Assembly (NCBI GenBank): GCA_017554105.1
Contig: JAFZIY010000018.1
Coordinates: 24,204 to 88,203 of the forward strand
From: Prevotella sp.
GTDB taxonomy: Bacteria > Bacteroidota > Bacteroidia > Bacteroidales > Bacteroidaceae
Direction of reading: 5' to 3'
Length of the DNA stretch: 64,000 bases
The notes beneath the pieces were generated by a model. That model saw nothing but the letters and a program-made list of their open reading frames with translations. It was not told the origin of the DNA and ran no database searches. A program made the translations under genes and the position numbers. Shown here piece by piece: positions 15,566 through 43,199 of this stretch; position 1 is the stretch's first letter, and each line of letters starts with the position of its first letter.

Positions 15566-16507
15566 ATGCAAATAGAAATAGATAACGGTAGCGGATTCTG
15601 CTTCGGTGTGACCACAGCCATACGCAAGGCAGAGGAGGAACTGGCAAAGGGCAGCAGGCTCTATTGCCTCGGCGACATAGTGCATAACGGCATGGAGTGC
15701 GAGCGACTGCGTAACATGGGACTCGTCACCATCAACCACGAGGAGATGAAAAGCCTGCACGATGTCAAGGTGCTGCTGCGCGCTCACGGTGAGCCGCCCG
15801 AGACATACGCCCTTGCCGAGAAGAACAACATCGAGATAATCGATGCCACCTGTCCTGTGGTACTGCAGTTGCAGCGCCGTATAAAGAAACAGTATGAAAG
15901 CCATCTGACGGAACAGGAGCAGAATTCTCTCTCCCCCCAGGGGGAGTTAGGAGGGGGCCATCCCCAGGGGGAGTCAGGAGGGGGCATTCCTCAAATAGTA
16001 ATCTTCGGCAAGCCAGGTCATGCTGAGGTGCTGGGACTGGTGGGACAGACGAAGGGCGACGCCATAGTGCTTGCCCATTTCGATGATGTCAGCAAGCTGG
16101 ACATGAACCGCGATATCTACCTGTACTCACAGACCACGAAGTCGCTCGATGAGTTCCAGCGCATCATAGAGTACATCAGGGAGCACATCTCGCCCGATGC
16201 CGAGTTCAAGAGCTTCGACACCATCTGCCGTCAGGTGGCCAACCGCATGCCTAACGTCAGCGCCTTCGCCAAGCGTCACGACCTTGTGCTCTTCGTATGC
16301 GGGCGCAAGAGCAGCAACGGCAAGGTGCTGTTCAACGAGTGCCAGCGCGTCAACCCCAACAGCCACCTCATCGAGGGAGCCGACGAGATAGACCCGCAGT
16401 GGCTGCAGGGCATCAACAGCGTGGGCATCTGTGGAGCCACCAGTACACCGAAATGGCTCATGGAACAATGCCGCGACGCCATACTTGCGACGGCTGGAGG
16501 AAATTGA
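15566..16507 (+). CDS. ispH: 4-hydroxy-3-methylbut-2-enyl diphosphate reductase IspH, with an in-frame repeat insertion
   Basis: IspH is the last enzyme of the MEP isoprenoid pathway: it reduces HMBPP to IPP and DMAPP on an iron-sulfur cluster. Cluster cysteines are Cys12 (GSGFCFGV), Cys96 (DATCPVV) and Cys221 (DTICRQ); substrate histidines appear in DIVHN, RAHGEPPE and GKPGHAEV. Start 15566 gives the conserved MQIEIDNGSGFC; an in-frame ATG at 15497 only translates the upstream repeat. About 24 residues from N119 to Q142 (two 9-residue units PQGELGGGH and PQGESGGGI) come from a tandem G/C palindromic element. Cys12 and Cys96 match E. coli numbering, while the third is at 221 instead of 197, a shift of exactly 24. 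The stop codon lies in another repeat. Confidence 0.95.
   Translation: MQIEIDNGSGFCFGVTTAIRKAEEELAKGSRLYCLGDIVHNGMECERLRNMGLVTINHEEMKSLHDVKVLLRAHGEPPETYALAEKNNIEIIDATCPVVLQLQRRIKKQYESHLTEQEQNSLSPQGELGGGHPQGESGGGIPQIVIFGKPGHAEVLGLVGQTKGDAIVLAHFDDVSKLDMNRDIYLYSQTTKSLDEFQRIIEYIREHISPDAEFKSFDTICRQVANRMPNVSAFAKRHDLVLFVCGRKSSNGKVLFNECQRVNPNSHLIEGADEIDPQWLQGINSVGICGATSTPKWLMEQCRDAILATAGGN
15931..15985 (+). repeat. Two tandem G/C palindromic elements inside ispH
   Basis: Two 27-nt units, each of the form CCCCAGGGGGAG-T(T/C)AGGAGGGGGC, lie in frame in ispH between the helix after Cys96 and the strand IVIFGKPGH. 27 nt is nine codons, so unit number does not alter the frame. The same head-tail layout occurs in several intergenic spacers of this window. 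Confidence 0.9.
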
Positions 16508-16641
16508 TAATTGATAATTGACAATTGATAATCGCAGCGAAGCGAGAATAACTCGTAATTCGTAATTCAAAACTTGTAATTTAAAATTCGTAATTTATAT
16601 TTCCTCCCTTAGGGAGGATAAAGGTGGGTTAATATTTTAAT
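16505..16641 (+). repeat. Composite modular spacer between ispH and greA
   Basis: In order: tandem TGATAAT words beginning at the ispH stop codon; the 23-bp CGCAGCGAAGCGAG-type unit at 16532-16554; tandem GTAATTC/AATTCGTAATT words (16555-16600); then CCTCCCTTAGGGAGG with tail ATAAAGGTGGG (about 16602-16626) before the greA ATG. The first three modules recur in the same order at 43131-43199 on the other strand, and in part at 17104-17243 and 20981-21050. Confidence 0.88.
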
Positions 16642-17106
16642 ATGGAATATATGTCACAGGAAGGCTACGACAAACTCGTGGCCGAACTACATGAACTGGA
16701 GAGCGTTGAACTGCCTCGCGTCAAGGAGGCCATAGCAGAGGCACGCGACAAGGGCGACCTCAGCGAGAACTTCGAGTACCATGCCGCCAAGCGCGCACAG
16801 GCACGACTGCTCAGCCAGATAAGCTACAAGCAGAAGGTGCTTGCCAACGCCCGCGTCATCGACATGTCGAGACTCAGCGCCAACAGGGTGCAACTGCTCA
16901 GCAAGGTCGAGATGACCAACATATCAACAAACAAGAAGATGGTCTATACCATCGTCAGCGCCCACGAGGCCAGCCTAAGCGAGGGGAAGATATCCATCAA
17001 GTCGCCCATTGCACAGGCCCTGCTGAACAAGGAGGTGGGCGATGTCGTGGAGGTCAAGGTCCCTGCCGGCGTGATGAAACTACGTGTTGAGAGTATAAAT
17101 CTATGA
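16642..17106 (+). CDS. greA: Transcription elongation factor GreA
   Basis: GreA binds the RNA polymerase secondary channel and stimulates cleavage of backtracked transcripts. The 154-residue protein has an N-terminal antiparallel coiled coil with the acidic tip RDKGDLSENFEYHAAK (residues about 36-51), where the catalytic Asp and Glu lie, and a C-terminal FKBP-like domain (about 85-154). Length is normal. The purine tail AAAGGTGGG of a palindromic element sits 15-20 nt before the ATG. The stop TGA is the first base triplet of a tandem GTTAGGAGTTA repeat. Confidence 0.96.
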   Translation: MEYMSQEGYDKLVAELHELESVELPRVKEAIAEARDKGDLSENFEYHAAKRAQARLLSQISYKQKVLANARVIDMSRLSANRVQLLSKVEMTNISTNKKMVYTIVSAHEASLSEGKISIKSPIAQALLNKEVGDVVEVKVPAGVMKLRVESINL

Positions 17107-17243
17107 GTTAGGAGTTACGAGTTATGAATTAGGAGTTGTCGCCTACGGCGATTATCAAGGAATAATTCATAATTGGATAATTCTTCCTCGCAGCGAAGCG
17201 AGAATAACTCAACATTCAAAATTCATAATTTAAAATTAATTAT
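17104..17243 (+). repeat. Composite modular spacer downstream of greA
   Basis: From the greA stop: tandem GAGTTA(G/C)GAGTT words, a short palindrome around GTCGCCTACGGCGA, an ATTCATAATTGGATAATT stretch, the exact 23-bp CGCAGCGAAGCGAG unit at 17188-17210, and AATTCATAATTTAAAATT up to the next start codon. The order of the last modules matches the ispH-greA spacer. Confidence 0.88.
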
Positions 17244-17741
17244 ATGAAGAAACTGTTATTTATAGCCATTATGATGATGACAGCCCTGTCGGTTAACGCC
17301 CAGGGTGAGGAGAGCATTACCCCACAACAGTACAACATCAAGGGCGCATGGCATTCATTAGACGATGATATGCGTATCTATTTCACGTTTGGGGATAACG
17401 GTCTCGTGAACGCCATGATTAAGGGCTACTTTAATGGCGATGTTTTTTCAACACAGGTGACGATCATGATTCCCGGCACCTATTCCGTGACGGGATCCAA
17501 GATTTACATTGTTGCCGACAAGGAAAGATGCGACATGAAACTAGAGAACCTTAAGATGAAGGGTGATTATGAAGGCATGGAGGATAATGCGAGGCCTATG
17601 TTCGAGGAGTATTTCAGCAAGCATAAGGAGGAACTGATTAGTTCGTTTGACTTTGATGATATTACTATTGTTTCCGTTACCGATGACACGCTCAAACTTA
17701 AAATGGGCAGAGATGACATCATGTTAGAAAGAGTGAAATAG
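17244..17741 (+). CDS. Secreted protein of unknown function (lipocalin-like strand pattern)
   Basis: 165 residues with a signal peptide (MKKLLFIAIMMMTALSVNAQ). The mature part has short alternating strands (GAWHSLDDDMRIYFTFGDNG, GTYSVTGSKIYIVAD, DDTLKLKMG) reminiscent of small lipocalin-like beta-barrels in Bacteroidetes, but no diagnostic motif is recognised. A palindromic double hairpin follows the gene. Function unknown. Confidence 0.6.
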   Translation: MKKLLFIAIMMMTALSVNAQGEESITPQQYNIKGAWHSLDDDMRIYFTFGDNGLVNAMIKGYFNGDVFSTQVTIMIPGTYSVTGSKIYIVADKERCDMKLENLKMKGDYEGMEDNARPMFEEYFSKHKEELISSFDFDDITIVSVTDDTLKLKMGRDDIMLERVK

Positions 17742-17762
17742 GATTTGTGAGGTATGAGGGTC

Positions 17763-17815
17763 GCCCTGAAAGGGCATAGAGAACTTAGCCCAGGGCATCG
17801 CCCTGGGTATTTTTA
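17763..17815. repeat. Double palindrome, terminator-like Bacteroidetes repeat
   Basis: Two adjacent hairpins, GCCCT-GAA-AGGGC (17763-17775) and CCCAGGGC-ATC-GCCCTGGG (17789-17807), are followed by TATTTTT. It follows the 165-residue secreted protein and can act as a terminator. Paired palindromes of this kind recall REP-type elements. Confidence 0.7.
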
Positions 17816-17882
17816 CGCACCAACCATCGCGCTGTAAGTGCAAAAGACTAATTTCATATTAAACCATACCGGCCGAACTTAA

Positions 17883-18806
<924 letters not shown>

Positions 18807-18990
18807 AAGGCCCACCTCCATCTCCTCCCCAAGGGAGGATGGTTGGATTTCATAAAGGTTATAGGTTATAGGTTAAAGGTTAATTCTTCACTCCTAATTC
18901 CTAATTCCTAACTCATAGTTTTCATCCCTAACGACTCCCCGCCCCTCGGAGGGGAGGGGGCCGGGGTGGGGACGTTAAAGAGTGAGGAGT
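18807..18990. repeat. Mosaic of palindromic and tandem repeats
   Basis: A palindromic head-tail element (18811-18838), identical for 28 nt to an inverted copy at 28490-28517, is followed by tandem GGTTATA words (about 18855-18883), tandem CCTAATT words (about 18889-18915) and a long element at 18916-18990 repeated in the same direction at 20116-20221. No coding sequence is seen here. Confidence 0.85.
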
Positions 18991-19002
18991 TTAGAGTGAA
19001 GA

Positions 19003-19023
19003 GTTCGATTCCCCTATCCACTA
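19003..19023 (+). other. tRNA T-loop-like remnant (possible 3' tRNA fragment)
   Basis: GTTCGATTCCCCTATCCACT fits a T-loop (TTCGATT), the 3' side of a T-stem and an acceptor strand. The 5' side does not pair and is replaced by repeat sequence, so this is not a tRNA gene. It lies ten bases before a terminator hairpin, as at the end of a real tRNA gene. It may be a tRNA fragment cut by a repeat or an old attachment-site scar. Confidence 0.35.
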
Positions 19024-19032
19024 CAAAAAGTC

Positions 19033-19062
19033 CTGCAAGTCAATATGATTTGCAGTTTTTTT
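19033..19062 (+). terminator. Rho-independent terminator
   Basis: Stem CTGCAAGTC/GATTTGCAG (19033-19041, 19047-19055, one G-T pair) with a 5-nt loop and a seven-T run. It follows the tRNA-like fragment rather than an intact gene. Confidence 0.8.
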
Positions 19063-19201
19063 GTGTCTTTATGAAATTAAATATGAAAATGTTTGCACGA
19101 AAACGATAAACATGTTAATTTTGTGGTGTTATACTCGTCTCGTTGGTTCTGAAGAACTAACCGATATGACACTATTGGTTAACAACTTAAAACTAAAAGC
19201 A

Positions 19202-19993
19202 ATGAAGAAAATCTTTATCGTTGTTGTCATGCTGCTTCCCCTCCTTATGTCGGCATGTATCGACTTTGCAAAAATCAAGGAGAAGGTGACTGGCACAGAA
19301 GAACCACAAAAGGAGAATGCCGTTGTGGGAGAAAGTGGACTGAAGGGTGAAGATGCTACAGAGACATCCGAGACTGCCAAGGCAGAGGATGACGCGAGCA
19401 CGAAGGAAGAAATTATTAGCCAGATAAAGAAAGCATGGCGCAACAAGTCCATCAGCGTAGTTTCAAACAGTGGCGCACCGGGCATCAAGGACTTTGCAAA
19501 GGCCTTCTGCCTCGTTTATCCCGACTATGGCCCTAACAAGTGTCTGTTGGAGTATGTCAACAACCCTTCTGGTTATGTGAGGGGCGATGGCAAAAGCGCC
19601 ATCACAGACAAGAGCAGCAATGGCTATTTAAAGAGCGATTTCGAGTATCAGTACGGCTGGCTCACCGAATGCTGCTACTGGAAGCGTAACAATGGCCATC
19701 GCCTTGTGGCATTCTGGCTGGAGGAGAGTCATGAGAGCGGCTGGGAGGACTGCGTGGTGGCTTTCTACGACTACGACCCACAGACTGGAGTGATGACTCC
19801 CGAGACATCGCTTTGCGACATGATCGAGAAAGAAGTGAAACGTTTCCAAACCTATAACCTCCGTCTCCCCATCGAGGGCAAGGATATCGAAATATATGCC
19901 GTTTCTTACGACAACGATGAGAATATGACCGACGAGGGCAACTACAAGCTGGTTTGGAACGGACAAACGTTCAAGATGAAGATTGAACATTGA
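19202..19993 (+). CDS. Putative lipoprotein of unknown function
   Basis: ATG at 19202 gives 263 residues with a lipoprotein signal (MKKIFIVVVMLLPLLMSAC, Cys19). A 60-residue Glu/Thr/Ala-rich linker precedes a globular domain (about 75-263) rich in Trp, Tyr and Asp (YQYGWLTECCYWKRNNGHR, VVAFYDYDPQTG). No family is recognised. The gene lies between two direct copies of a long repeat (18916-18990 and 20116-20221), and its stop TGA falls in an ATTGAACATTGAACATTG tandem. Confidence 0.65.
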   Translation: MKKIFIVVVMLLPLLMSACIDFAKIKEKVTGTEEPQKENAVVGESGLKGEDATETSETAKAEDDASTKEEIISQIKKAWRNKSISVVSNSGAPGIKDFAKAFCLVYPDYGPNKCLLEYVNNPSGYVRGDGKSAITDKSSNGYLKSDFEYQYGWLTECCYWKRNNGHRLVAFWLEESHESGWEDCVVAFYDYDPQTGVMTPETSLCDMIEKEVKRFQTYNLRLPIEGKDIEIYAVSYDNDENMTDEGNYKLVWNGQTFKMKIEH

Positions 19994-20115
19994 ACATTGC
20001 CGAGCGCGTAGTCGCTTAGTTGTTTAGGAGATTAGTCGTTTGGTCGTTTAGGAGTAAATTCTTTCAGTCGCTTCGCTGTGAAGGTATAGCTCGACGGCCG
20101 AGCGCGTATAATCCG

Positions 20116-20221
20116 TAGTTTTCATCCCTAACGTCTCCCCGCCCCTCGGAGGGGAACCAACGGTCGCTGGCCGAAGGGAAAAGCAATTGGGCAGGGGTGG
20201 GGACGTTAAAGAGTGAGGAGT
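20116..20221 (+). repeat. Second copy of the 18.9-kb repeat, carrying a 41-nt guest element
   Basis: 20116-20155 matches 18916-18955 with one mismatch, and 20194-20221 matches 18963-18990 exactly. Between them this copy holds a 41-nt segment (20151-20191) that is the exact reverse complement of 40865-40905. Confidence 0.92.
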
Positions 20222-20316
20222 GAGGAGCTTACTGCTTACAGCTTATTAATTCGTGAAATTCGCTTAATTCGTAGTTTTTCGCCGTAAGCCGTAAGCAGTA
20301 AACTGTAAGCCAAGGA

Positions 20317-20332
20317 GGGGCCTTATGGCCCC
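20317..20332. terminator. Palindrome overlapping the stop codon of the HU-like gene
   Basis: GGGGCC-TTAT-GGCCCC contains the TAA stop of the minus-strand HU-like gene. A second inverted repeat GGCTCT/AGAGCC (about 20339-20354) lies inside the last codons. No T-run follows, so it may be a repeat rather than a true terminator. Confidence 0.45.
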
Positions 20333-20766
20333 GGAGAAGGCTCTGGAGAGCCTACGTCATTTTTGGGCAATTCCTTCGCCGTCACGCCCTGTAGCATGGT
20401 GATGGTGCGTTTGCCGTTCTTGTCCACGGTCCACTCATTGAGGAAGTTCAGGCGCATGCCCTTCACGTTCTGTGCTGCCGAGAACTCCTTTGCGGATGGT
20501 GCCGGAGAAGTCTTCAGTCCCACCTTGAAGATACCCAGTCCTGGTATGCGCACGGCATACGACCGTTTCAGCAGCGCCCTCATCTGCTCCACCATTTCGG
20601 TGAGCACGGCCTGTGCGTCCGCCTTCTTTGCCGTAGTGTTGTCCTGAATGAGCTGAGCCAGCTCGTCGAGTTCGATGATGTCGAGCATCTTAGCGCGAGC
20701 GTACCACATACCCCTGTGGGTAGAGTTCTCGCGATTGTCCTGTTGAAGTTTGTAAAGTACTGCCAT
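20323..20766 (-). CDS. HU-family histone-like DNA-binding protein (Bacteroidetes long form)
   Basis: 147 residues related to HU/IHF: helices with DELAQLIQDNTTAKKADAQAVLTEMVEQM (about 32-60), then RIPGLGIFKVGLK, the beta-arm entry of HU proteins, and a C-terminal extension. Bacteroidetes carry several such longer proteins (starting MAVLYKLQQDN), which presumably bend or coat DNA and often occur near mobile or capsule loci. The last residues EPSPGP are encoded by palindromic sequence and may be an added tail. It is followed by repeats and marks the left side of the accessory island. Confidence 0.85.
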   Translation of the reverse strand: MAVLYKLQQDNRENSTHRGMWYARAKMLDIIELDELAQLIQDNTTAKKADAQAVLTEMVEQMRALLKRSYAVRIPGLGIFKVGLKTSPAPSAKEFSAAQNVKGMRLNFLNEWTVDKNGKRTITMLQGVTAKELPKNDVGSPEPSPGP

Positions 20767-20781
20767 GTTTTTTGTTTTTAA

Positions 20782-20960
20782 TGGTTATAGGTTATAGGTT
20801 ATTGGTTAAAGGATTTTGACTTCGTGACTCGTCATTTGTCCGCGCGCTTTGACATTTAACTTGTCTACTCGTCAACTAGTCCACTTGTCAACTATTGACG
20901 ATACAAAATTAATAAAAATATTCCATATTACCAAATAATTATGGTAATATTTTCAAGTAA
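20782..20960. repeat. Tandem-word repeats upstream of the HU-like gene
   Basis: GGTTATAGGTTATAGGTTAT words (about 20781-20811) are followed by CTTGTC/ACTCGTCAACT words (20860-20895) like those between meaB and ispH, then an AT-rich stretch. No gene is seen between 20767 and 21118. Confidence 0.75.
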
Positions 20961-20980
20961 TTCTTTAATTATTTTATCCT

Positions 20981-21050
20981 TCATAATTTATCATTCTTCC
21001 TCGCAGCGAAGCGAGAATAACTCGTCCTTCACAATTCGTAATTTTTGAAT
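20981..21050 (+). repeat. Composite spacer modules upstream of the dam fragment
   Basis: CATAATTTATCATTCTTCC, the exact 23-bp CGCAGCGAAGCGAG unit (21001-21023) and CACAATTCGTAATTTTT follow in the same order as after ispH and greA, and point toward the plus-strand gene downstream. Confidence 0.85.
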
Positions 21051-21055
21051 ATTAT

Positions 21056-21086
21056 TTTGCACTATCACCACTTTTTTATATCTTTG
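21056..21086 (+). promoter_or_regulatory. Consensus promoter in front of the dam fragment
   Basis: TTTG (21056-21059) and TATCTTTG (21079-21086) are separated by exactly 19 nt. It now drives a 56-codon gene remnant and may read on into the toxin-antitoxin genes. Confidence 0.85.
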
Positions 21087-21118
21087 CAGATTAGAAAAAC
21101 AAAAGATACTAAACCATA

Positions 21119-21289
21119 ATGGCAAGACCAAAAGATAATAATACATCAATTGCAAAACCATTTGTAAAATGGGCAGGAGGCAAGGGGCAGCTGCTTACAC
21201 AACTTGATGCGCTGCTTCCTATTGGTCTTGATGAAAGGGAGTTTACGTATATTGAGCCGTTTGTGGGCGGTGTAACCCCTATCGGGTAA
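21119..21289 (+). pseudogene. Truncated Dam-type DNA adenine methyltransferase
   Basis: The 56-residue reading frame begins normally and carries PFVKWAGGKGQLL and YIEPFVGG. These match the N-terminal AdoMet-binding motif (FxGxG) region of Dam/DpnM alpha-class N6-adenine methyltransferases. It ends right after EPFVGG with VTPIG and a stop; no further dam sequence is found in the 2 kb downstream. Full-length enzymes have about 270-290 residues, so catalytic DPPY and target-recognition regions are missing. The promoter is intact. It is probably the remnant of a modification gene left when the toxin-antitoxin segment arrived. Confidence 0.85.
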
Positions 21290-21377
21290 AACATTTTCTA
21301 CTTTCAATCGAAAATTAATGCACAAAAAGTTGCAAGATACGACAACTTTAATTATATTTGCACACAAATAATCGAAG

Positions 21378-21993: not shown

Positions 21994-21998
21994 CTGTC

Positions 21999-22718: not shown

Positions 22719-22729
22719 TTCGCTGAAAT

Positions 22730-26119: not shown

Positions 26120-27427
26120 ATGACTTACGATATTACAAAACAAACAGCACCGAAGATGCCTAAGCTCGGAAAAGGGCTTGAATGCATCAAACTTCTGGCC
26201 TCCCAGATTTCTCCAGACATGCGTGAGGCTATCGTTCCAATGGTTTTCCCTGCTCTGGGAGCATACGTAAGTGGTTCGGAATTTCAATATGCTGACCTCA
26301 CTTGGAAAGAACTTTGTGGCCAAATGGCCCACTTGGTTGCCGATTCGGGCATGGGAAAGGGTCAATTAACGGCGTGTATTGAAACAATTATGCGAAAGCG
26401 TCGCCAGCATGATGAGGAAGAATTGCAGAAGCTTGTCTTATGGCAAAAAACCGTCAAGACGAAGGGAGCGAACAAGGAGAAGCCTGTCCGTCCCGACGTT
26501 GCGTTTTTCTTCCCACCTTCAGATGTCACCAATCCGGCATTTCTGCAAAATGCCATGGCATGTGAAACGTGTGGTGGCCATACCCAATACTACAACATGA
26601 CTGAGATTGAGATGGCAGATCGCATGTGCGGTGGCCATCGGCAGGTGAGCCAGACCATCCGCAACATCTATGACAAGATGCGTGGCGGGGCTCTTCGTGC
26701 TACTGCCGACGGAGTGACTGGCAACCCTACGCTTCGCGTGAATCTCACCTTCTCATCAACCCCATTCTCTGCCCGCAAGTTCTATAAATACGAGCTTTTC
26801 AACGGAGTTCTCGGGCGTGTGATTTTCTCCTACAAGGCACGTCAGGAACGTAGCGGCAAGATCCCCCGTCATGGAACATACGAAAAGGGATATCTTGAAA
26901 AACTCGATAGGTACATCGTCCGTCTGGAGGCTTGTAAGGGGCGATTTATCATTCCTCAGCTGAACAAACTGGCCGACAAGATGGCCGCCGATATGGCTAC
27001 CATAGCCGACCTTGCCGACGACGACGTTCTGTGGGACATGGGCAAGCGTGCCATTATCTCTGCGTGGAAGAACGGCTGCATCCTCTACATCCTTAATGGG
27101 ATGTGTTGGACTCGCGGCATGGGTGATGTGGTGGAATGGCTTTGCTACAAGGATATATGGAGCAAGCTACAAGTGTTCGGCGACATGCTGAAGGATGGCG
27201 ACACAAGCACATCTGAGGCTGGCAAGAGTGGGCCGAAAAACATGCTGGACGACCTTCGCGACTCGTTCAACGAGGCCGAGCTGGAGGCTCTTCGCATGAG
27301 CATCGGCAAGCCGAAGGAAGGCACCAAGCGACAATTGCGCGTATGGATGAGCCGCGGCTTTATTGAGTTCTCTGCACAAACAGGGCTCTATTCCAAGACA
27401 AAGAAGTATCTTAACCGTACACGATGA
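26120..27427 (+). CDS. DUF3987-like replication helicase-type protein of a mobile element
   Basis: 435 residues. The N-terminal part (LASQISPDMREAIVPMVFPALGAY) followed by the P-loop-like VADSGMGKGQL (about 75-85) and a diverged core resemble DUF3987/YfjI-like proteins, which are carried by integrative elements and associated with primases. The signature is incomplete (GMGKGQ rather than GxxGxGKS/T), so ATPase activity is uncertain. Its stop overlaps the next ATG (ATGA), coupling it to the CHC2 primase. No integrase or mobilisation gene accompanies the pair. Confidence 0.6.
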   Translation: MTYDITKQTAPKMPKLGKGLECIKLLASQISPDMREAIVPMVFPALGAYVSGSEFQYADLTWKELCGQMAHLVADSGMGKGQLTACIETIMRKRRQHDEEELQKLVLWQKTVKTKGANKEKPVRPDVAFFFPPSDVTNPAFLQNAMACETCGGHTQYYNMTEIEMADRMCGGHRQVSQTIRNIYDKMRGGALRATADGVTGNPTLRVNLTFSSTPFSARKFYKYELFNGVLGRVIFSYKARQERSGKIPRHGTYEKGYLEKLDRYIVRLEACKGRFIIPQLNKLADKMAADMATIADLADDDVLWDMGKRAIISAWKNGCILYILNGMCWTRGMGDVVEWLCYKDIWSKLQVFGDMLKDGDTSTSEAGKSGPKNMLDDLRDSFNEAELEALRMSIGKPKEGTKRQLRVWMSRGFIEFSAQTGLYSKTKKYLNRTR

Positions 27428-28443
27428 TGGATAAGTTTGAATTGCAGAAGCTCCGCGACCTTCCCATTGAGGGGGTCGCAGAGCGACTTGGGATGCAGGT
27501 GGTGAGGCATAAGGCGCTGTGCCCGTTCCACGACGACCATCACGCCTCACTGTCGTTCAGCGTGCGCAGGAACACGTTCCGCTGCTTCGCATGCGATGCA
27601 CACGGGGGAACGATTGATTTGGTGATGAAGCAAATGAACATGGACTTCAAAGAGGCCATAAAATGGTTGAGCCTCTCCCCCGACCCCTCCCCCGTAGGGA
27701 GGGGAGACTGGAGAGATGAGAGGGAAGCCTCCCCTACGGGGGGAGGAGGGAGGGGGCTGTCATTCTATGAGCGTTTCTTTGAGCGTCCGTTCTTGAATGT
27801 GGAGGCACGGCGGTTTTTGTTTGATGAGCGGAGGATTGACCCGCGGGTGGTGCGCTGGTGCCGTCTGACATCGTGGAAGGACAAGAGGCAGGTGCCGTGG
27901 CTGCAAGTACCGTATTACGACCGTGAGGGGCGGCTGGTGGGCATACAGAACCGTAACCTCGGCAAGTCCCCCTTGGGGGATTTAGGGGGGTCGGACTTGC
28001 CGCGTTTCCGTTTCCCTCAGGGCTCACAGTGTGGCATATACAACTTGCCTGTGCTGAACCTGCTGCGCCCGGGTGATGAGCTGTGGATTACCGAGGGTTG
28101 CTCGGACTGCTGGGCAATGCTCTCCTCAGGTCGTAAGGCCATCGCCATTCCCTCCGCCACCCTGTTAACGAAAAAAGATAAGGAACAATTGTCAATTATC
28201 AATTCTCAATTATCAATTGAATATCACATGTACCCCGACCGCGACGCACCCGGCGAGCGCCTCTTCATGCAACTGCAGAAGGTGCTGCCGGGGCTCGTGC
28301 ATCATCAGTTGCCCGAAGGGTGCAAGGATTTCGGGGAATACTACACCCACATCGTGGGACCCCACCCCTGCCCACTCCCCTCAAAGGGGCGGGGAAGCAT
28401 TAGGATGAGGTATGAGGTAAGAGGTATGAGGTATGAGGGGTGA
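27424..28443 (+). CDS. CHC2 zinc-finger/Toprim primase-like protein with four repeat-derived insertions
   Basis: 339 residues. An N-terminal CHC2 zinc finger (CPFHDDHHASLSFSVRR, then CFACDAHGG; about 36-65) is followed by a Toprim-like domain with LWITEGCSDCWAM (acidic Glu near 222) and HMYPDRDAPGERL (Asp pair near 271-273), as in DnaG-type primases of mobile elements. The frame is interrupted but never broken by repeat-derived segments: about residues 84-113, 180-193, 254-266 and the C-terminal tail from 311. All are encoded by the palindromes or tandem words found between genes elsewhere here. They fall between domains or at the end, so activity could survive. Confidence 0.82.
   Translation: MMDKFELQKLRDLPIEGVAERLGMQVVRHKALCPFHDDHHASLSFSVRRNTFRCFACDAHGGTIDLVMKQMNMDFKEAIKWLSLSPDPSPVGRGDWRDEREASPTGGGGRGLSFYERFFERPFLNVEARRFLFDERRIDPRVVRWCRLTSWKDKRQVPWLQVPYYDREGRLVGIQNRNLGKSPLGDLGGSDLPRFRFPQGSQCGIYNLPVLNLLRPGDELWITEGCSDCWAMLSSGRKAIAIPSATLLTKKDKEQLSIINSQLSIEYHMYPDRDAPGERLFMQLQKVLPGLVHHQLPEGCKDFGEYYTHIVGPHPCPLPSKGRGSIRMRYEVRGMRYEG
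27673..27758. repeat. In-frame G/C palindromic element 1 in the primase gene
   Basis: CCCCTCCCCCGTAGGGAGGGG and CCTCCCCTACGGGGGGAGGA are imperfect reverse complements about a 20-nt centre. The head/purine-tail structure (ending GGGAGGGGGC) matches the ispH element. It lies between the zinc finger and the Toprim domain. Confidence 0.85.
27961..28001. repeat. In-frame G/C palindromic element 2 in the primase gene
   Basis: GGCAAGTCC and GGACTTGCC form outer 9-bp arms around CCCTTGGGGGATTTAGGGGG, giving a hairpin within a hairpin in the coding frame. Confidence 0.85.
28186..28222. repeat. In-frame AATTATCAATT tandem words in the primase gene
   Basis: CAATTGTCAATTATCAATT and further copies are the reverse complement of the AATTGATAATTGATAATT words that follow the ispH and S41-peptidase stop codons. 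They encode a segment near residues 254-266. Confidence 0.85.
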
Positions 28444-28517
28444 TTCCTTTAGTTTACTGTTTACAGACTCATTTCGGTGTTTAAACCCTCCTCCCTTGGG
28501 GAGGAGATGGAGGTGGG
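28357..28517. repeat. Repeat mosaic forming the primase C-terminus and the spacer to the efflux channel gene
   Basis: A CCCCTCAAAGGGG palindrome and tandem GGTATGA words (28409-28442) encode the last residues and stop of the primase. The words recur at about 40947-40968. The 28-nt palindrome-tail at 28490-28517 is an inverted copy of 18811-18838. 28518-28648 holds another G-rich element and no gene. Confidence 0.85.
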
Positions 28518-38100: not shown

Positions 38101-38326
38101 TGTCGGGCACACCGTTGATGTTCTCCTCCAATGGCTGTACCACCGACTTCATGATGGTGTTGGCATCGGCACCCGTATAGCTTGTGATGACACGTACCGT
38201 AGGCGGCGCGATGTTCGGGTATTGCTCGATGGGCAGCGACTTCATGCAGATGAAGCCCACCAATGCTATCACGATAGAGATGGCACAGGCCATCACGTAT
38301 CTGTTGATGAATATATTATTCTTCAT
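35168..38326 (-). CDS. RND multidrug efflux pump, inner-membrane permease (AcrB/MexB, HAE1 family)
   Basis: 1052 residues with the RND layout: TM1, first large periplasmic loop, TM2-6, TM7, second loop and TM8-12. The proton-relay Asp pair is seen in VGTVVDDAIVVVE (Asp405-Asp406). RND pumps use proton influx to expel hydrophobic drugs, bile salts and similar compounds. The presence of an Asp-Asp pair and the HAE1-type sequence argue against a metal-exporting HME pump. It follows the MFP gene after a spacer of CTAATT-type tandem words, and the channel gene is three genes downstream. Confidence 0.96.
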   Translation of the reverse strand: MKNNIFINRYVMACAISIVIALVGFICMKSLPIEQYPNIAPPTVRVITSYTGADANTIMKSVVQPLEENINGVPDMTYMTSSASSSGDVSIVVYFKQGTDPDIAAVNVQNRVSRATALLPAEVTKVGVQVMKQQSNILQIGAIRSVDGKYDDDFVANYIDINLKPRLMRITGVGDVMSLGNTYALRIWLKPDVMAQYGLEPNDVFAAIGGQSFVAATGSLGAQSDNAYQYTMEYKGTLKTIDEFNDIVLKTSDGGHLLHLSDVADVEIGAMSYNFISNIGGKPGTIFMVFQAPGANATEVNARIDQLYEDLKPMMPAGLEFVKLETSDDFLYAAIGNVVETLIIAIILVVLVVFFFLQNFKATIIPSISIIVSLLGTFAIVSLAGFSLNILTLFALVLAIGTVVDDAIVVVEAVMAKMEGGITDAKQATREAMSDVSVAVVSCTLVFMAVFIPVAFMPGTSGSFFTQFGVTIASAVGLSCVSALTLCPALCAIMLKVSEKEGERKSLTYYTKKAYTVSYNAIYKKYSKAVQKFIKRPVLAWSLLAVAAVLLIFFMKNLPSGLVPQEDQGVILAEIRAPEGATLKETREIVKKVEAKVQEIPEMESFATACGYGMMSGSGSNYATLIIRLKTWEEREGFNHYVDLVIGRLYYACKDIKNVQVMPFQLPQVPGYGSNNSVNLVLQDLNDGDLSEFAKLATNFLTKLGERPEISMAMTSYSERFPKYQVDVDATQCDRAGVTPAVVLRTLGSYCGGSYVGNFNQFGKVYRIMASASPEYRLDPSSLNNIFVKVHGGKMAPISEFVTLKEVVGTSSIEHFNLFQSITCFVQAAGGYTEGDAHKVIAEVFKETMPNGYSYEYSGMSRELEEASGSNTTALIYIICVILIYLILASLYNSWFTPWAVLLSVPFGLMGAFVCAYLGSLLHLPGMDNNIYLQTGVIMLIGLLSKTAILITEFASERRAQGMSIRDAAFEACKERLRPILMTVLTMIAGMIPLIIEGGAGANGNRALALGVVGGMSVGTIALLFVVPVFFIVFQGLHERFQGKAKTVEETN

Positions 38327-38382
38327 TAGAATATAACTCCTAATTTCTAATTCCTAAGTTCTAACTCCTAATTCATCGCTCT
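38327..38382 (-). repeat. Tandem AATTAGGAGTT-type words between MFP and RND genes
   Basis: Read on the minus strand, GAATTAGGAGTTAGAACTTA and further degenerate copies fill the spacer between the MFP stop and the RND start. Similar words follow greA and the polyprenyl synthase gene. Confidence 0.75.
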
Positions 38383-39549
38383 TTAATCTTTCTTCACTTC
38401 CGGGAACAGCACCTTCTGGCCTTCCTGAACGTTGTTGGCACCTTCGGTCACGATACGGTCGCCGACATTCAGACCACTCGTCACGATGAAGTCCTTACCG
38501 TTGCCAATATCCTGAGTCGTTACGGTAACGGCAGTAGCAGTACTGTCGGCCCTCACCTTATATACTAACGACCTGTCCTGCAGACGTACCACAGCATTTT
38601 GTGGAATAACCATCACGTCCTTTCTCTGAAGCGGAAGAACCACGGTTCCCTGAATACCAGAGAACAGATGACCGTCGGGATTGGGGAACGAGGCCTTAGC
38701 ACCCAGCGAACCTGTGGCGGCATCAACGACACCCGTCAGACTGGTAATGCGGCCCTTGTGCTTATATTCCGTACCATTCTTCATCAAGAATGTCACGTCG
38801 GGCATTTCAGCCAGATGCTTGTCCTTCTCATCAGCCTTCATGCCGGCCTGCACCTGCGACTCAATGATGGCCTCCGTTACCGAGAACTCTGCGTCCATAT
38901 TAGTATTGCCGCTGACGATGGTCAGATGAGAGGCTGGCGATACCTGGTCGCCCGGTCGTACTGGAATCTCACCAATAACACCTGTTACGGGTGATGTGAT
39001 GGTACAGAAACCGAGGTTCACCCTGGCGCGGTTCACAGCCGACTGTGCCTGAGCGACAGAAGCCCTTGCCTGACTGACAGCGGCTAATGCCTGGTTGTAA
39101 TTGTTTCGGGAATTCTCAAGCATATAACTGCTTACTATCTTCTTGTCGAACAGGTTCTTGTTGCTCTCAAACTCCAACTTGGCGCTGTTGGCCTGTGCCT
39201 GTGCAGCCGTAAGATTGGCCTGTGCAGCCTGGAGGTTGGCGCGTGCGGCTTCTACCTCATGCTGTGCATTACGGGAGTCGATGACAAAAAGCACCTGACC
39301 TTTGGTTATCTGCTGACCTTCTGTGACACATATCTTCATCAACTGACCACTTACCTGTGGAGTTATCGTCACGTCGGCCTGTCCCTTCAGTCTGGCGCTG
39401 AATTTCATAGGTATCGTGATGTCCTGTTTCTTCACATTCATTGTCTCGAATGAGGTCTTTACTTCCTTAGGCATATCCAAACCGCAGGATGCCACTCCGA
39501 TAGCTATCCAAAGGATGCTAATCAATAAAACCAGTTCTTTTCTTTTCAT
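38383..39549 (-). CDS. RND efflux membrane fusion protein (periplasmic adaptor)
   Basis: 388 residues from ATG 39549. A lipoprotein-like N-terminus (ISILWIAIGVASC) is followed by the barrel-sandwich lipoyl halves (VSGQLMKICVTEGQQITKGQVLF and SPVTGVIGEIPVRPGDQVS), an Ala/Gln-rich coiled-coil hairpin (about 110-190) and beta-barrel domains. It bridges the RND pump and the outer-membrane channel. Upstream in-frame starts up to 39669 run through the promoter and are rejected. It is the first gene of the efflux cluster. Confidence 0.94.
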   Translation of the reverse strand: MKRKELVLLISILWIAIGVASCGLDMPKEVKTSFETMNVKKQDITIPMKFSARLKGQADVTITPQVSGQLMKICVTEGQQITKGQVLFVIDSRNAQHEVEAARANLQAAQANLTAAQAQANSAKLEFESNKNLFDKKIVSSYMLENSRNNYNQALAAVSQARASVAQAQSAVNRARVNLGFCTITSPVTGVIGEIPVRPGDQVSPASHLTIVSGNTNMDAEFSVTEAIIESQVQAGMKADEKDKHLAEMPDVTFLMKNGTEYKHKGRITSLTGVVDAATGSLGAKASFPNPDGHLFSGIQGTVVLPLQRKDVMVIPQNAVVRLQDRSLVYKVRADSTATAVTVTTQDIGNGKDFIVTSGLNVGDRIVTEGANNVQEGQKVLFPEVKKD

Positions 39550-39582
39550 TACCATTAATAATATAAAATAATATTTCGCATG

Positions 39583-39590
39583 CAAATTTA
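39583..39590 (-). promoter_or_regulatory. -7 promoter element of the efflux cluster
   Basis: TAAATTTG on the minus strand (TAnnTTTG), followed by CATG and about 33 nt before the MFP start codon. It would drive the whole six-gene cluster. Confidence 0.5.
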
Positions 39591-39756
39591 CGATAATATT
39601 ACACTTTGTCTTAATTACACTTATTCGTTTTCTTAAAGTAGTTGCGACAACCGGGTTAATTTGCGACAAATAGCCAGAGCACCCCTGAATATTGTCGTTC
39701 TTCAGATAGATTTTTAGTTCAAAGTTGTCTTTTCCGTACGGTTCTACAGATATCGA

Positions 39757-40746
39757 TTACAGCCTCAAACCAAAGAAGGCTCGTACACGCCATTTCGTAT
39801 TGCGTACCTCAAGATTTTTCTCGTCACCGATGTTGGTAAAGTTGAAGACCATTGACAGGCCTGCGAACTTGTTGCCTATCTGGCGCACGACAGCACCGCG
39901 GCTTGTGATGATGACCTCTGGGAAATGATAGTGCATCGGTATTTTCGTGCCGTCGATGGAGAACGATGTCTTGCTATAGACGATGAATGTGGGTAGGGCA
40001 GAGATATGAATCAGCCAACCGCGATGTGGAACGTAGTTGTAGCCATAGCCCGCTCCGATGCCTATGTTGGTCATCTTGAACATTGTCTCGTGTTCGTCGC
40101 TTACGGTTCCCTTCTGTCCCTGACCTGAGAGGGCTATCATGAAACTGCCTGCAGAGCGACGCTGTATGCAGCTCTGGGTGAAGGCGGCGGGATAAGAGAA
40201 ACGACGATGGTTGAAGACGTAGTATGTGTTCAGGTTGAGTGTCTTCAGCTTGAGCAGGTCTGATGGTAGTTCAATACGCTCCTCGCCATCGGTCTGGTGC
40301 CATCCCTTGAAGTTCTTCGCGTCCTGGTAGATGAGGTCTATGCCGAACCGTTTGCCGTAGGCATTGACATTAAACTCGAAGTCGCTGTATTTACCCATCA
40401 GTTTTGCCGGGTTGAGAGCAAGGTTGAGAGAGAGTCCGAGATAGGATACACCCAGACTAAGCGTGGATTTATAGTCGGCTGTCATCTCGGACTGGAAATG
40501 TCGTCCGTTCTCTACTCCCTGAGACTTTATCTGTGCCCCAGAGATATTAAGCCTCCCTATTATGGTCCACTTTGTTGTTGGCTTGATGACGTAAGCTGTG
40601 TCGATGTCCGAATTATGATACCGCTCGGTCAGTTTTTGGTCAATACGATGCAGGAAACTGTTCTTTTCCTGGGCATTTACATAAGACAAAGCCCCGAAAA
40701 AACAGAATACAATTAGTGTTACAGATAGTCTAAATAGTAATCTCAT
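39757..40746 (-). CDS. DUF4421 family outer-membrane-type protein
   Basis: 329 residues with a signal peptide (cleavage after YVNAQ). The body consists of amphipathic aromatic strands (LSLGVSYLGLSLNLALNP, FGIDLIYQDAKNFKGW, IGIGAGYGYNYV) and ends RVRAFFGLRL, with a terminal hydrophobic residue typical of beta-barrels. The pattern matches DUF4421, a Bacteroidetes family of unknown function. It has its own -7 box (40784-40791, minus strand) and is separate from the efflux cluster. Confidence 0.82.
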   Translation of the reverse strand: MRLLFRLSVTLIVFCFFGALSYVNAQEKNSFLHRIDQKLTERYHNSDIDTAYVIKPTTKWTIIGRLNISGAQIKSQGVENGRHFQSEMTADYKSTLSLGVSYLGLSLNLALNPAKLMGKYSDFEFNVNAYGKRFGIDLIYQDAKNFKGWHQTDGEERIELPSDLLKLKTLNLNTYYVFNHRRFSYPAAFTQSCIQRRSAGSFMIALSGQGQKGTVSDEHETMFKMTNIGIGAGYGYNYVPHRGWLIHISALPTFIVYSKTSFSIDGTKIPMHYHFPEVIITSRGAVVRQIGNKFAGLSMVFNFTNIGDEKNLEVRNTKWRVRAFFGLRL

Positions 40747-40783
40747 TTGTTAATCGTTATTCGTAACAACCCCTGACATAGTG

Positions 40784-40791
40784 CAAAGATA
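40784..40791 (-). promoter_or_regulatory. -7 promoter element of the DUF4421 gene
   Basis: TATCTTTG on the minus strand followed by CAC, 37 nt before the start codon. Confidence 0.55.
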
Positions 40792-40852
40792 CTTATTTTC
40801 ACTCAACTACCAAACTTTTGTCTTCATTTTTTTCGTAATTACATACTTTCAG

Positions 40853-40970
40853 ACCCCACCCCGACCCAATTGCTTTTCCCTTCGGCCAGCGACCGTTGGT
40901 TCCCCTTGAGGGACGGGGAGTCATCAGGATGGGTGATTGGTGAAGGGTATGAGGTAAGAGGTATGAGTGA
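40853..40970. repeat. Palindromic/guest repeat mosaic between the DUF4421 gene and tRNA-Leu
   Basis: ACCCCACCCCGA is followed by the 41-nt element 40865-40905 (exact inverted copy inside 20151-20191), a C/G palindrome flank and GGTATGAGGTAAGAGGTATG words shared with 28409-28442. No gene is seen in 40792-40975. Confidence 0.85.
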
Positions 40971-40977
40971 GAAACGA

Positions 40978-41014
40978 GAAAACGTCAAGTCACGGGGTGT
41001 AACTTGACGTTTTC
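40978..41014 (-). terminator. Terminator of tRNA-Leu
   Basis: A perfect 13-bp stem GAAAACGTCAAGT/ACTTGACGTTTTC (40978-40990, 41002-41014), just past the tRNA 3' end on the minus strand. Confidence 0.85.
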
Positions 41015-41019
41015 GTGTG

Positions 41020-41101
41020 TGCGCCTGATAGGACTCGAACCTACACGACAGGGGTCACTAGATCCTAAGTCTAGCGCGTCTACCAATTCCGCCACAAGCG
41101 C
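41020..41101 (-). tRNA. tRNA-Leu (anticodon UAG)
   Basis: An 82-nt type II tRNA. The 7-bp acceptor stem (GCGCTTG with CAGGCGC) has one G-U pair; D-arm GGAATTGGTAGACGC; anticodon stem-loop CTAGA-CTTAGGA-TCTAG gives UAG; a variable arm follows; T-arm GTAGGTTCGAGTCCTAT. Discriminator base is A, as required for tRNA-Leu. CCA is not encoded. A TACCTTTG box lies at 41134-41141 on the minus strand. Confidence 0.96.
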
Positions 41102-41133
41102 GCTGGCATTTCCCTGTTTTTGGAAATGCGGTG

Positions 41134-41141
41134 CAAAGGTA
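41134..41141 (-). promoter_or_regulatory. -7 promoter element of tRNA-Leu
   Basis: TACCTTTG on the minus strand, followed by CACC, 32 nt before the tRNA 5' end. Confidence 0.6.
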
Positions 41142-41180
41142 GTGTGTTTTTAAATAAAAACCAAATAATAGGCGGACTTT

Positions 41181-42314
41181 TTATTTTATATACTTCACCT
41201 TCGACGCGTCGCGCGGCTTTGCGTCTGGCTGCTCGTCGGGATAGCCTACGGCAAGGATATAGAGTAGCTCATAGCCCTCGCTGAACCCGAGGCGGTAGAT
41301 GTATGGCTTGGCCTCCTCTGACGTGTTGAGGAAGCGCACTGGACCGCCCAGGCAGCATGTGCCCAGTCCGAGTGCCTGTGCCGTGAGCATCATGTTCTCG
41401 CCAAGCAGACCGGCATCGAGTTGTCCGTCGCCCTTAGGCGTTGCCACGCAGATGATGTTGGGTGCGTTGCGGAACATGTTCTTGAAGTCCTTGTCGCGGC
41501 TCACCATGTCGGGATTGGCTTTCTTGAAGATGTCGGTTAGTTCCTGGATGAAGGAATAGTCCTCTACGATGCGTATCTCCCAGGGCTGTCTGTTGATGCC
41601 ACTCGGGGCGTTGATGCCGCACAGGGCTATCTGCTCCAGTTTCTCGTGCTCTACGGGCTGGTCGATGTATTTGCGTATGCTACGGCGTTCCATGATGGCC
41701 TTCACCACCTCGTTGTCAGCATAGGCATTGCCCTTCGTCCATGCTCCCACCACCTCTCCGATGTATTCGGTGTGTACTCCGCCGGGGAAGTTGCCGTACA
41801 TGCGTTTTGGAACGTCGCTCCTGAAGTGGCTCTTGTCGAATGGTGCGGCATACATTGTCTTACATTCGATGACCATAGTGGCTTCCTTGTAATAGGGCGT
41901 TCCGTTGGCCGTGTATGCCGTGTGCAGTCCTAACGCTGCCGCCTTGTCGCCGTCGCGTCCGCTGTGGCTTCCCATGTACTGTAGCACATTGGCCATGCTC
42001 TTGTCGAAGGACATCACGGTGAAATACTCCGACGCGTCCATGAACTTCTTGGTATGGCGCTGCTCTGCGACATATACCGTGAGCGCCGTGCGTCCCCATA
42101 GCGTGCCGATGCCGCCCCAGCCGATGGTCATGGCGTTCTCCTTCGTCTTGTCTCCCGCACATAGCAGTTGTGCGTCGCGGAACCATTGGAACCCGTTGGG
42201 CGAGAAGTCGTCCTCAACGCTTATTTCCGTGAAACCGTTCTCCACCTGTGCTTGTGCACATAGTGGCAGTGTGAGCAGCATGGCTGCTGCGATTGTTCTG
42301 ATAAAACCTTTCAT
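41181..42314 (-). CDS. Exported flavin reductase-like/nitroreductase fusion protein
   Basis: 377 residues with a signal peptide (MKGFIRTIAAAMLLTLPLCAQA), unusual for a flavoenzyme. Residues about 27-200 resemble a flavin-reductase-like FMN-binding domain (NAMTIGWGGIGTLWGR, ALTVYVAEQRHTKKF). Residues about 205-377 are a nitroreductase domain (IMERRSIRKYIDQPV, NAPSGINRQPWEI, AQALGLGTCCLGG, YELLYILAVGYP). Both families bind FMN and use NAD(P)H. The protein would act outside the cytoplasm, where the electron donor is unclear. The two-domain composition was not split by any stop. It lies downstream of the ABC ATPase gene on the same strand, 27 nt away. Confidence 0.85.
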   Translation of the reverse strand: MKGFIRTIAAAMLLTLPLCAQAQVENGFTEISVEDDFSPNGFQWFRDAQLLCAGDKTKENAMTIGWGGIGTLWGRTALTVYVAEQRHTKKFMDASEYFTVMSFDKSMANVLQYMGSHSGRDGDKAAALGLHTAYTANGTPYYKEATMVIECKTMYAAPFDKSHFRSDVPKRMYGNFPGGVHTEYIGEVVGAWTKGNAYADNEVVKAIMERRSIRKYIDQPVEHEKLEQIALCGINAPSGINRQPWEIRIVEDYSFIQELTDIFKKANPDMVSRDKDFKNMFRNAPNIICVATPKGDGQLDAGLLGENMMLTAQALGLGTCCLGGPVRFLNTSEEAKPYIYRLGFSEGYELLYILAVGYPDEQPDAKPRDASKVKYIK

Positions 42315-42341
42315 GAGTTTGATGTTTTTAGGATTGTGAGT

Positions 42342-43130
42342 TTATTTGTCAACACTTATTGTTAATGTCTCGGGATGGAAATGGATGCCCTTGCCCTCGA
42401 TGAACCTTGTCAGCGAACCCGTTGCCGCGAGTTCCCCGGGTGTGCCCACCTCTAATGTGGTGGATTGTTGTTGGGTGTTGGTGGAGAGCAGCCATAGGCG
42501 GTCGGCCAGTTGCAGGGCGAGTTCGAGGTCGTGGGTGGACAGGAATATCGTCTTCTTCGTCTCGTGGGCCAGTTGCCGCAGGAGGAGCAGCATGTCGACC
42601 TTCGACGGATAGTCGAGAAATGCCGTTGGCTCGTCGAGATAGATTACGGGTGTCTGCTGTGCCAGAGCCTTTGCAATCATCACTTTCTGTCTTTCGCCGT
42701 CACTAAGCGTCTGTATCATGCGCTCAGAGAGATGTGAGATACCTGTCTTTGCAATGCTCTCGTCCACTATCTCGCGGTCGTTCTCGTTCAGGGTTCCCCA
42801 GAAGCCTGTATATGGTGAGCGCCCCAGACCTACTAACTCGGTAACCGTGATGTTCTGAACGTCGGGCTTTGAGGTGAGCACCACTCCGATAAGACGTGAC
42901 ACTTCCTTGTCTGAGAGTGTCTCCAGTTGCTTCCCGTCGATGGTGATATTACCGCTGAGGGCTGGCTGGAAGGCGCTCAGAGTGCGCAACAGGGTGCTCT
43001 TGCCGATGCCGTTAGGCCCGATGAGGCAAGTAAGCTCGCCTTCCATAAGTGTGGCATTGATGCCTTCAGCCACCACCTTACGGTTGTTTTTTGACGTATA
43101 TCCTATGGATAGGTTCTCGAGTGTAATCAT
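42342..43130 (-). CDS. ABC transporter ATP-binding protein, FecE/BtuD-like
   Basis: 262 residues. Walker A GPNGIGKST (about 38-46), Q-loop region near VVLTSKPDVQ, signature LSDGERQKV, Walker B VIYLDEPTAFLD and the H-loop STHD are all present, so it should hydrolyse ATP. Its sequence class (metal-siderophore/cobalamin, FecCD-type partners) usually pairs with a permease and binding protein, but neither is adjacent; it stands between an S41 protease and a nitroreductase. It may serve a permease elsewhere. Confidence 0.9.
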   Translation of the reverse strand: MITLENLSIGYTSKNNRKVVAEGINATLMEGELTCLIGPNGIGKSTLLRTLSAFQPALSGNITIDGKQLETLSDKEVSRLIGVVLTSKPDVQNITVTELVGLGRSPYTGFWGTLNENDREIVDESIAKTGISHLSERMIQTLSDGERQKVMIAKALAQQTPVIYLDEPTAFLDYPSKVDMLLLLRQLAHETKKTIFLSTHDLELALQLADRLWLLSTNTQQQSTTLEVGTPGELAATGSLTRFIEGKGIHFHPETLTISVDK

Positions 43131-43199
43131 TCTTTGAATTACGAATTTGGAATGACAAATCTTGAGTTATTCTAGCTTCGCCGCGATTATCAATTATCA
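43131..43199 (-). repeat. Composite modular spacer between S41 peptidase and ABC ATPase genes
   Basis: Read on the minus strand: TGA stop plus TAATTGATAATCGC words, the CGCGGCGAAGCTAG variant of the 23-bp unit (43164-43186, two substitutions), then AATTCGTAATTCAAAG directly before the next ATG. Module order and direction relative to the genes equal those between ispH and greA. Confidence 0.88.

Follow-up and report, generated by a model that had tools for sequence, protein, structure and literature searches.

The DNA analysed here is a stretch of 64,000 nucleotides from Prevotella sp. (contig JAFZIY010000018.1, positions 24,204 to 88,203), referred to below as the window; the genome to which it belongs (3.12 Mb) is designated G000 and the relative with which it was compared G028. 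Our subject is a 23-bp unit, TCGCAGCGAAGCGAGAATAACTC, and the intergenic element of which it forms part. The unit occurs exactly at 16532-16554, 17188-17210 and 21001-21023, always on the plus strand, and with two substitutions at 43164-43186 on the minus strand, in agreement with an earlier interpretation of the window, the sequence-only reading. Allowing up to two mismatches, its 14-bp core has five matches in the window, against a mean of 0.55 and a maximum of 3 in 100 shuffles; the fifth, at 20067-20080 on the minus strand, is a looser relative. Three of the copies, as that reading had stated, fill the interval between one gene's stop codon and the start of the following gene, in the spacers between ispH and greA (16505-16641), between greA and the following gene, which has no Pfam match (17104-17243), and between an S41 peptidase and an ABC-transporter ATPase gene (43199-43131, minus strand). 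The characteristic words said to flank every copy are clear at 16532 and 43164, but the sequences at 17188 and 21001 are merely loosely similar to them. Moreover, the flanking word AATTGATAATT has 15 matches in the window at up to one mismatch and is therefore not specific to the 23-bp unit. The features of the window are listed in Table 1.

Table 1. Heptamer arrays, hairpins and related repeats in the window
Feature	Position	Strand	Basis
AATTGAT heptamer array, 4.4 copies, including the ispH stop codon (16505-16507)	16502-16532	+	TRF, sequence, Pfam LYTB
Right-hairpin unit, exact 23-mer	16532-16554	+	sequence
C-rich heptamer-type arm of CGTAATT words ahead of greA	16550-16597	+	TRF
GAGTTAG heptamer array over the greA stop codon (17104-17106)	17105-17137	+	TRF, Pfam GreA
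Left hairpin TCGCC-TAC-GGCGA	17139-17151	+	sequence, fold
Right-hairpin unit, exact, 36 bp past the left hairpin	17188-17210	+	sequence
C-rich heptamer arm, next start codon 6 bp away	17209-17237	+	
Heptamer arrays AGGTTAT then TAATTCC, opposite polarity, without core	18853-18911	+	TRF
Right-hairpin unit, exact, in a divergent spacer	21001-21023	+	sequence, gene calls
AATTGAT words into the end of the S41 peptidase gene, right hairpin, CGTAATT words to the start of the ABC-transporter ATPase gene	43131-43202	-	sequence, Pfam
Right-hairpin unit, two substitutions	43164-43186	-	sequence
Sister element without core: TGTAGAA heptamer arms, near-perfect inverted repeat, between convergent MatE and cytidylate kinase genes	53625-53738		TRF, fold, Pfam

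Modular structure of the element

When the copies are printed with their flanks, the 23-mer proves to be the right-hand hairpin of a larger element. This consists of a heptamer array, zero or more left hairpins (GAGTTR-TCGCC-NNN-GGCGA-TTA), a switch of polarity, one or more right hairpins (CGCAGCGNAGCGAGAAYAACTC) and a C-rich heptamer arm that reaches to the next gene. The array presents its G-rich strand inward from the gene boundary, usually over the stop codon, and the heptamers 3′ of the right hairpin have the reverse polarity of those upstream. Read in reverse, the right hairpin itself resembles the left one (GAGTT..TCGC..GCGATTA), and the palindromes thus come as inverted pairs. The heptamer words vary with lineage, being AGTTAGG, AATTGAT and CGTAATT in G000, AATTACG and AATGTTG in G028, and AATTAAG and AATTTAG in most of the named metagenome-assembled genomes (MAGs).

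Mixed hairpin neighbours on one strand read left-right in 25 of 25 cases and never right-left, neighbours being defined, here and in the register counts, as hairpins 11-130 bases apart. Where a right hairpin is followed by an inverted left one, as seen in loci L037 and L049, the latter was counted as a left hairpin on the other strand. Together with the spacing in heptamer register, the left-right order upholds the proposal of the sequence-only reading that the repeats form an assembled modular unit with a conserved order rather than random low-complexity DNA. The term modular is apt because the same heptamer frame can hold another hairpin: in the G000 spacer C29:356956-357055, an AATTGAT arm after the stop codon is followed by a CCCCACCCC hairpin and by a TAATTCG arm before the start codon.

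Heptamer register

Successive left hairpins are separated by 38, 45 or 66 bases, each equal to 3 modulo 7, in 13 of 15 cases, although five of the 15 come from a single locus, L046. Successive right hairpins are separated by 12, 19 or 40 bases, each equal to 5 modulo 7, in seven of eight. The three exceptions, which were kept in the counts, are two gaps containing another hairpin and one containing an 8-base unit. The 25 left-right gaps, which span the polarity switch, take all seven residues modulo 7 and show no quantisation. A period of seven also dominates in the genome sample examined: in 464 kb of G000 (400 kb of genome stretches plus the window) we counted 33 arrays with a lag of 7, 11 with a lag of 8 and six with a lag of 9, but none with lags of 2-6, and a first-order Markov resample gave no arrays. 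The closely related loci L032 and L034, whose aligned blocks are 97.5% and 91.4% identical, differ within the arrays by four gaps: three, of 84, 21 and 7 bases, are multiples of 7, and the fourth, of 51 bases, removes a hairpin unit. Outside the arrays there is one more gap, of a single base.

Heptamer arrays are more widespread than the element, since three GARTTNN words in a row occur in 75 of 148 Bacteroidota genomes, very unevenly (overlapping matches were counted separately). Matches to this word and to its reversed-word control number 124 and 6 in G000, 95 and 2 in genome G060, 65 and 0 in G084, and 21 and 29 in G182. GARTTNN is thus not a universal heptamer, since arrays of the control word exist in some Bacteroidota such as G182.

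Hairpin stems and folding

Among left hairpins selected by their flanks alone with a 3-nt loop, 27 of 35 pair perfectly. Five of these perfect stems are changed on both sides (TCGGC/GCCGA three times, TTGCC/GGCAA and TCGCT/AGCGA once each); because such stems still pair, the left stem is kept while its sequence drifts. Of the imperfect hairpins, two stay close to the consensus but are altered on one side, and six resemble fortuitous matches. In the right hairpin a single loop position is frequently variable, being A, T or C in GCGNAGC. DNA hairpins of the GC-GNA-GC type are unusually stable, yet a standard DNA fold credits the right hairpin with no exceptional stability.

At the RNA level, some spacers fold far better than shuffled sequences, as do locus L006 (z -9.4), window 17107-17243 (z -4.8) and the sister element at 53627-53752 (-63.1 kcal/mol, z -12.8). 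Others fold no better than shuffles, namely 16508-16600 (z -0.08) and 43131-43196 (z 0.28). The three strongest stems all lie in convergent spacers (C29:358152, window 53627 and C29:228607), and the core is present in the first only. At gathering score, the sole Rfam match in the window is a tRNA, and no structured RNA family was matched by the element.

Distribution among genomes

The sequence-only reading had predicted dozens of copies; a search of the whole of G000 returned ten at up to three mismatches, and none for the reversed control pattern. A 22-bp unit is exact at six sites of G000, and the exact 22-mer was found in 30 contig stretches elsewhere, every one belonging to a MAG described as Prevotella sp. 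or uncultured Prevotellaceae. Of the 30 titles, 11 give the rumen, reticulum or omasum as the source of the sample, and 17 more carry RUG names, which we take to denote rumen genomes. At up to one mismatch, 16 of 249 genomes of the genus are carriers, G000 included, with at most 16 copies per genome.

Turnover between related genomes

Orthologous spacers were compared with G028 on both sides for five of the ten G000 copies; at 17188 the greA side alone aligned. In four of the five, the core is absent from G028. The ispH-greA spacer, 134 bp long in G000, is reduced to 5 bp in G028 (the stop codon being read from the alignment), the counterpart of the convergent site at C29:358228 has no element, and the sites at 43164 and C22:151958 hold other sequence. 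The element at C14:82508 is common to both genomes and is expanded in G028 to at least three left and at least four right hairpins. The reverse case was also observed, with a long array in G028 where the G000 spacer measures 27 bp. Elsewhere in this segment, the two genomes carry unlike repeat families in one and the same spacer, for example a TGTAGAA-armed inverted repeat in G028 and a CCTCCCC-type hairpin in G000. In other members of the genus, greA orthologues were found in 12 of 22 loci; their readable flanks differ, and these spacers are therefore uninformative about empty sites. Runs of N adjoin tandem right-hairpin units in two G028 loci, L052 and L062 (contigs C10 and C15).

Placement relative to genes

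The orientation of the core was scored in 43 entries with both neighbouring genes called (ten from G000, 11 from G028 and 22 from named contigs; seven entries with one called neighbour stood outside this set). L034 was merged with L032, as were overlapping G028 loci, L041 was dropped because it shares a contig with L046, and L047 and L048 were left out; L019/L021 and L022/L040 are orthologous pairs and hence not independent. The core points with co-directional genes in 21 entries and against them in 16, while three are convergent and three divergent. The statement that the unit points in the direction of the flanking genes is accordingly true of the three operon-type copies of the window and fails as a general rule; the orientation check proposed with it yielded no bias, and the copy at 21001 lies in a divergent spacer. 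Co-orientation with genes was therefore rejected as a property of the element. Likewise, 37 of the 43 entries do lie between tandem genes, yet this is not much higher than the background proportion, 119 of 165 spacers of 40-400 bp in the gene-called sample.

The heptamer arrays follow gene boundaries in another way. Of 50 arrays collected at a looser threshold, seven lie inside called genes, 13 at no gene end, four abut both neighbours and 26 abut exactly one. The last group has the G-rich strand inward in 24 cases; the abutted end is a stop codon in 21 and a start in five, and 15 overlap the neighbour's frame. In the 30 nt that begin with the stop codon, stops in all three frames are present at 18 of 24 array-bearing gene ends; the corresponding figures are 31 of 227 for other ends and 9 of 24 for the opposite strand of the array-bearing ends. 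Ends followed by a further gene within 27 bases were excluded from this count. At C29:358228, an arm contains the stop codon of the left gene, and the convergent right gene has its own at the outer edge of that arm. The preference for an inward G-rich strand and the stops in all three frames may reflect a filter on tolerated gene-end insertions, or may be part of a function.

Transposase genes and other repeat families

Two Y1_Tnp matches were found in G000 and one in G028, and all three adjoin other repeats: GCCCTGAAAGGGC/CCCAGGGC on G000 contig C29, GGGGTTCGCCCC on G000 contig C15, and GGGGCG-type repeats on G028 contig C6. The first, a Y1/RAYT-like gene at L139:2809-3285, is flanked by inverted GCCCTGAAAGGGC and CCCAGGGC..GCCCTGGG palindromes, and the same repeat occurs at window 17760-17850; the gene and its palindromes look like a REPIN-RAYT pair in Prevotella. 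The two other matches, L151 (G000 C15:248480) and L150 (G028 C6:65204), lie close to inverted repeats of the GGGGCG type (CGGGCTAACACAGGGGTTCGCCCCTACA and a related sequence), to which a long hairpin in the G000 spacer C29:355855-356160 is similar.

A second family, to which the sister element of Table 1 belongs, combines TGTAGAA heptamer arms with a core AATTATGATTAC..GTAATCATAATT and a variable loop. It was seen at window 53625-53738 and on G028 contig C20 near 119800-120000, thus at different sites in the two genomes.

Discussion

We consider that the 23-bp unit probably belongs to a non-autonomous family of dispersed palindromic repeats, turning over between genomes and residing in the heptamer arrays of some Prevotella, many of them from the rumen. 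Of the roles offered by the sequence-only reading, that of a mobile cassette comes closest, with mobility itself an inference. mRNA processing and translational coupling are disfavoured by this turnover, because the core is absent from four of the five orthologous spacers. The data can be explained without invoking a dedicated regulatory role.

Arrays may grow and shrink by slippage or by unequal recombination in a 7-bp register, the hairpins being carried along, and new sites could be seeded by template switching between heptamer arrays, by ectopic recombination between them or by some transposase. That insertions at gene ends survive may be due in part to the stops in all three frames that the inward G-rich orientation provides. 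It is tempting to go further and to speculate, with little confidence, that replication- or repair-coupled copying in 7-base steps, without recourse to a dedicated transposase, builds the inverted arrays at gene ends and carries interchangeable hairpins, the arrays acting as general landing sites. The self-complementary AATT present in many heptamer words could then allow a 3′ end to fold back or to change templates without leaving the register.

A number of observations weigh against a mobile palindromic family. Taken by itself, the right hairpin shows no folding advantage over shuffled sequence (z -0.3 as RNA, z -0.62 in a standard DNA fold). In 2 of 19 array spacers, as against 5 of 38 control spacers, the spacer's own arms pair better than all swapped ones, and long-arm pairing is thus not general; the median pairing energy of a spacer's own arms (-13.1) is in fact weaker than that of swapped arms (-14.6). 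No core-like, left-hairpin-like or heptamer-array match was found in the three Y1 loci of G000 and G028 (2.4-3.3 kb each), and neither phage records, plasmid records nor viral contigs matched the element, the query being the exact degenerate pattern or one 191-base element. Since the aligned blocks of G000 and G028 are only about 75-89% identical, loss from G028 is at single sites as possible as gain in G000, and neither a target-site duplication nor an exact excision was seen at the sites compared. Finally, seven arrays lie inside called genes, and the counts on placement should be taken as approximate, since the gene finder, written in-house, overlooked at least one gene (window 27424-28443, with a Pfam CHC2 zinc finger). 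The array at 28184-28220, entered above among those at no gene end, lies inside that frame and another, at 28402-28444, over its stop codon, and heptamer arrays therefore also enter coding sequence; the array-placement counts were left as computed.

Alternatively, the folded spacer might be a cis-acting mRNA element whose hairpins mark RNase processing, transcript stability or translational coupling. The filling of spacers from stop to start, the maintained pairing of the left stem and the folding of some spacers far beyond shuffles would be in keeping with this, whereas the lack of orientation bias, the missing core in most orthologous spacers and the two spacers that fold like shuffles are not, and we regard it as rather unlikely. 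In particular, a spacer-long RNA hairpin is not the rule, because the arms of a spacer are in general no better partners for each other than those of other spacers, ranking first in the two spacers mentioned only; it was discarded as a general model. The elements might also be bidirectional transcription terminators, and three convergent spacers do carry long near-perfect stems. However, the core is present only at C29:358152, lies between co-directional genes in most entries, and has no T run directly 3′ of it, and the ispH-greA copy separates genes that are 5 bp apart in G028; a terminator function is thus very improbable.

The remaining explanations concern the origin of the repeats. Pure neutral slippage would expand AT-rich spacers by heptamers and produce the hairpins via quasi-palindrome correction, with no dispersal of the core. 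The dominance of period 7, the frequency of core-free arrays and the occurrence of GARTTNN triplets in about half of the Bacteroidota genomes are all compatible with such a process, but slippage alone would not copy a GC-rich core to new spacers, and the 22-bp unit is exact at six genome sites and common to several species; we therefore hold this explanation unlikely. If a REP/REPIN family were mobilised by a RAYT (Y1) transposase encoded in the genome itself, this would account for short intergenic palindromes in inverted pairs, and Y1_Tnp matches do exist in both genomes. Those genes, however, adjoin other repeats, and the element is present at none of the three loci, which argues against a RAYT origin and leaves it highly doubtful.

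The closest parallel to the dispersed palindromic family favoured here is found in cyanobacteria. Elhai et al. 2008 are said to have described small dispersed repeats (SDR) within heptameric STRR arrays of Nostoc/Anabaena; these repeats are reportedly about 21-27 bp long, form hairpins with compensatory changes, lie in intergenic heptamer tandem repeats and are patchy between species, and we know of no transposase for them. The Prevotella element is alike in all these respects: a unit of some 20-30 bp is dispersed over many unrelated intergenic sites, it is embedded in heptamer tandem repeats, its presence is patchy, and no transposase is apparent, while compensatory stem changes were found in the left hairpin only. 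It differs in belonging to another phylum, the comparison being one of descriptions and not of sequences, and in that its hairpins lie in heptamer register, in a fixed left-to-right order, within arrays that often start at gene ends. Further papers report the insertion of SDR5 into HIP1 (PMC4390886), describe small dispersed repeats (PMC2884548) or mention them in connection with REPINs (PMC3116915), and a study of a Nostoc operon describes both heptamer-type and hairpin-forming intergenic repeats (PMC2408588).

Other systems resemble the element in part. According to MacGregor 2015, TAACTGA heptamer direct repeats occur in Beggiatoaceae, Cyanobacteria and five Bacteroidetes, other heptamers stand alongside them, and close relatives have shorter intergenic regions without obvious repeats (PMC4679880). 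These repeats and the Prevotella arrays are alike in being intergenic heptamer direct repeats at gene boundaries; the TAACTGA system differs in using one heptamer, which in the main genome lies for the most part immediately 5′ of start codons, and its description, as far as accessible, includes no in-register hairpin modules or inverted arms (PMC4679880). The REP/REPIN-RAYT systems, as presented in two papers, share short intergenic palindromes and inverted pairs (PMC3116915, PMC3733652). In contrast to these, the Prevotella element has no RAYT association at the three Y1 loci, and its consensus, inspected by eye, has no GTAG/CGTC tag at the hairpin base, the left tag being GAGTTR and the right tail AAYAACTC; CGTC occurs further out, in the arm word CGTCATT of G028 copies. 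The BrickBuilt MITE of Porphyromonas gingivalis is likewise an intergenic element of Bacteroidales with a tandem 23-nt unit and inverted-repeat ends, but its 23-mer is itself tandem without spacers, whereas the Prevotella hairpin is set in heptamer arrays (PMC4596501). Among the matches listed in our literature searches, which covered few subscription papers, no title or abstract opening describes the present element.

The origin of period-7 intergenic repeats and the spread of tiny palindromes in the absence of an evident transposase are, to our knowledge, open questions in cyanobacteria. Here both phenomena are met together in Bacteroidota, with hairpins locked in register, two hairpin types in constant order and two closely related loci showing change by whole heptamers, and the process can be tested by comparison of strains. 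The results also carry a warning, since spacers that in a single genome look like conserved regulatory cassettes can be subject to turnover among species.

Additional observations in the window

Within the ispH-greA spacer, beside the element, a CCTCCCTTAGGGAGG hairpin is followed by AGGTGGGTT at 16601-16632; these are similar to other repeats of the window and are absent from G028 at this position. Period-8 arrays (GAGTTGAC, AACTCGTC, TAGTCGTT) occur at 15408-15557 and 20009-20054, the first with inverted words, in a layout that resembles that of the heptamer elements. A short open frame at 21119-21290, which then stops, reads like what we take to be the start of a DNA adenine methylase, and its upstream region resembles that of C22:159013.

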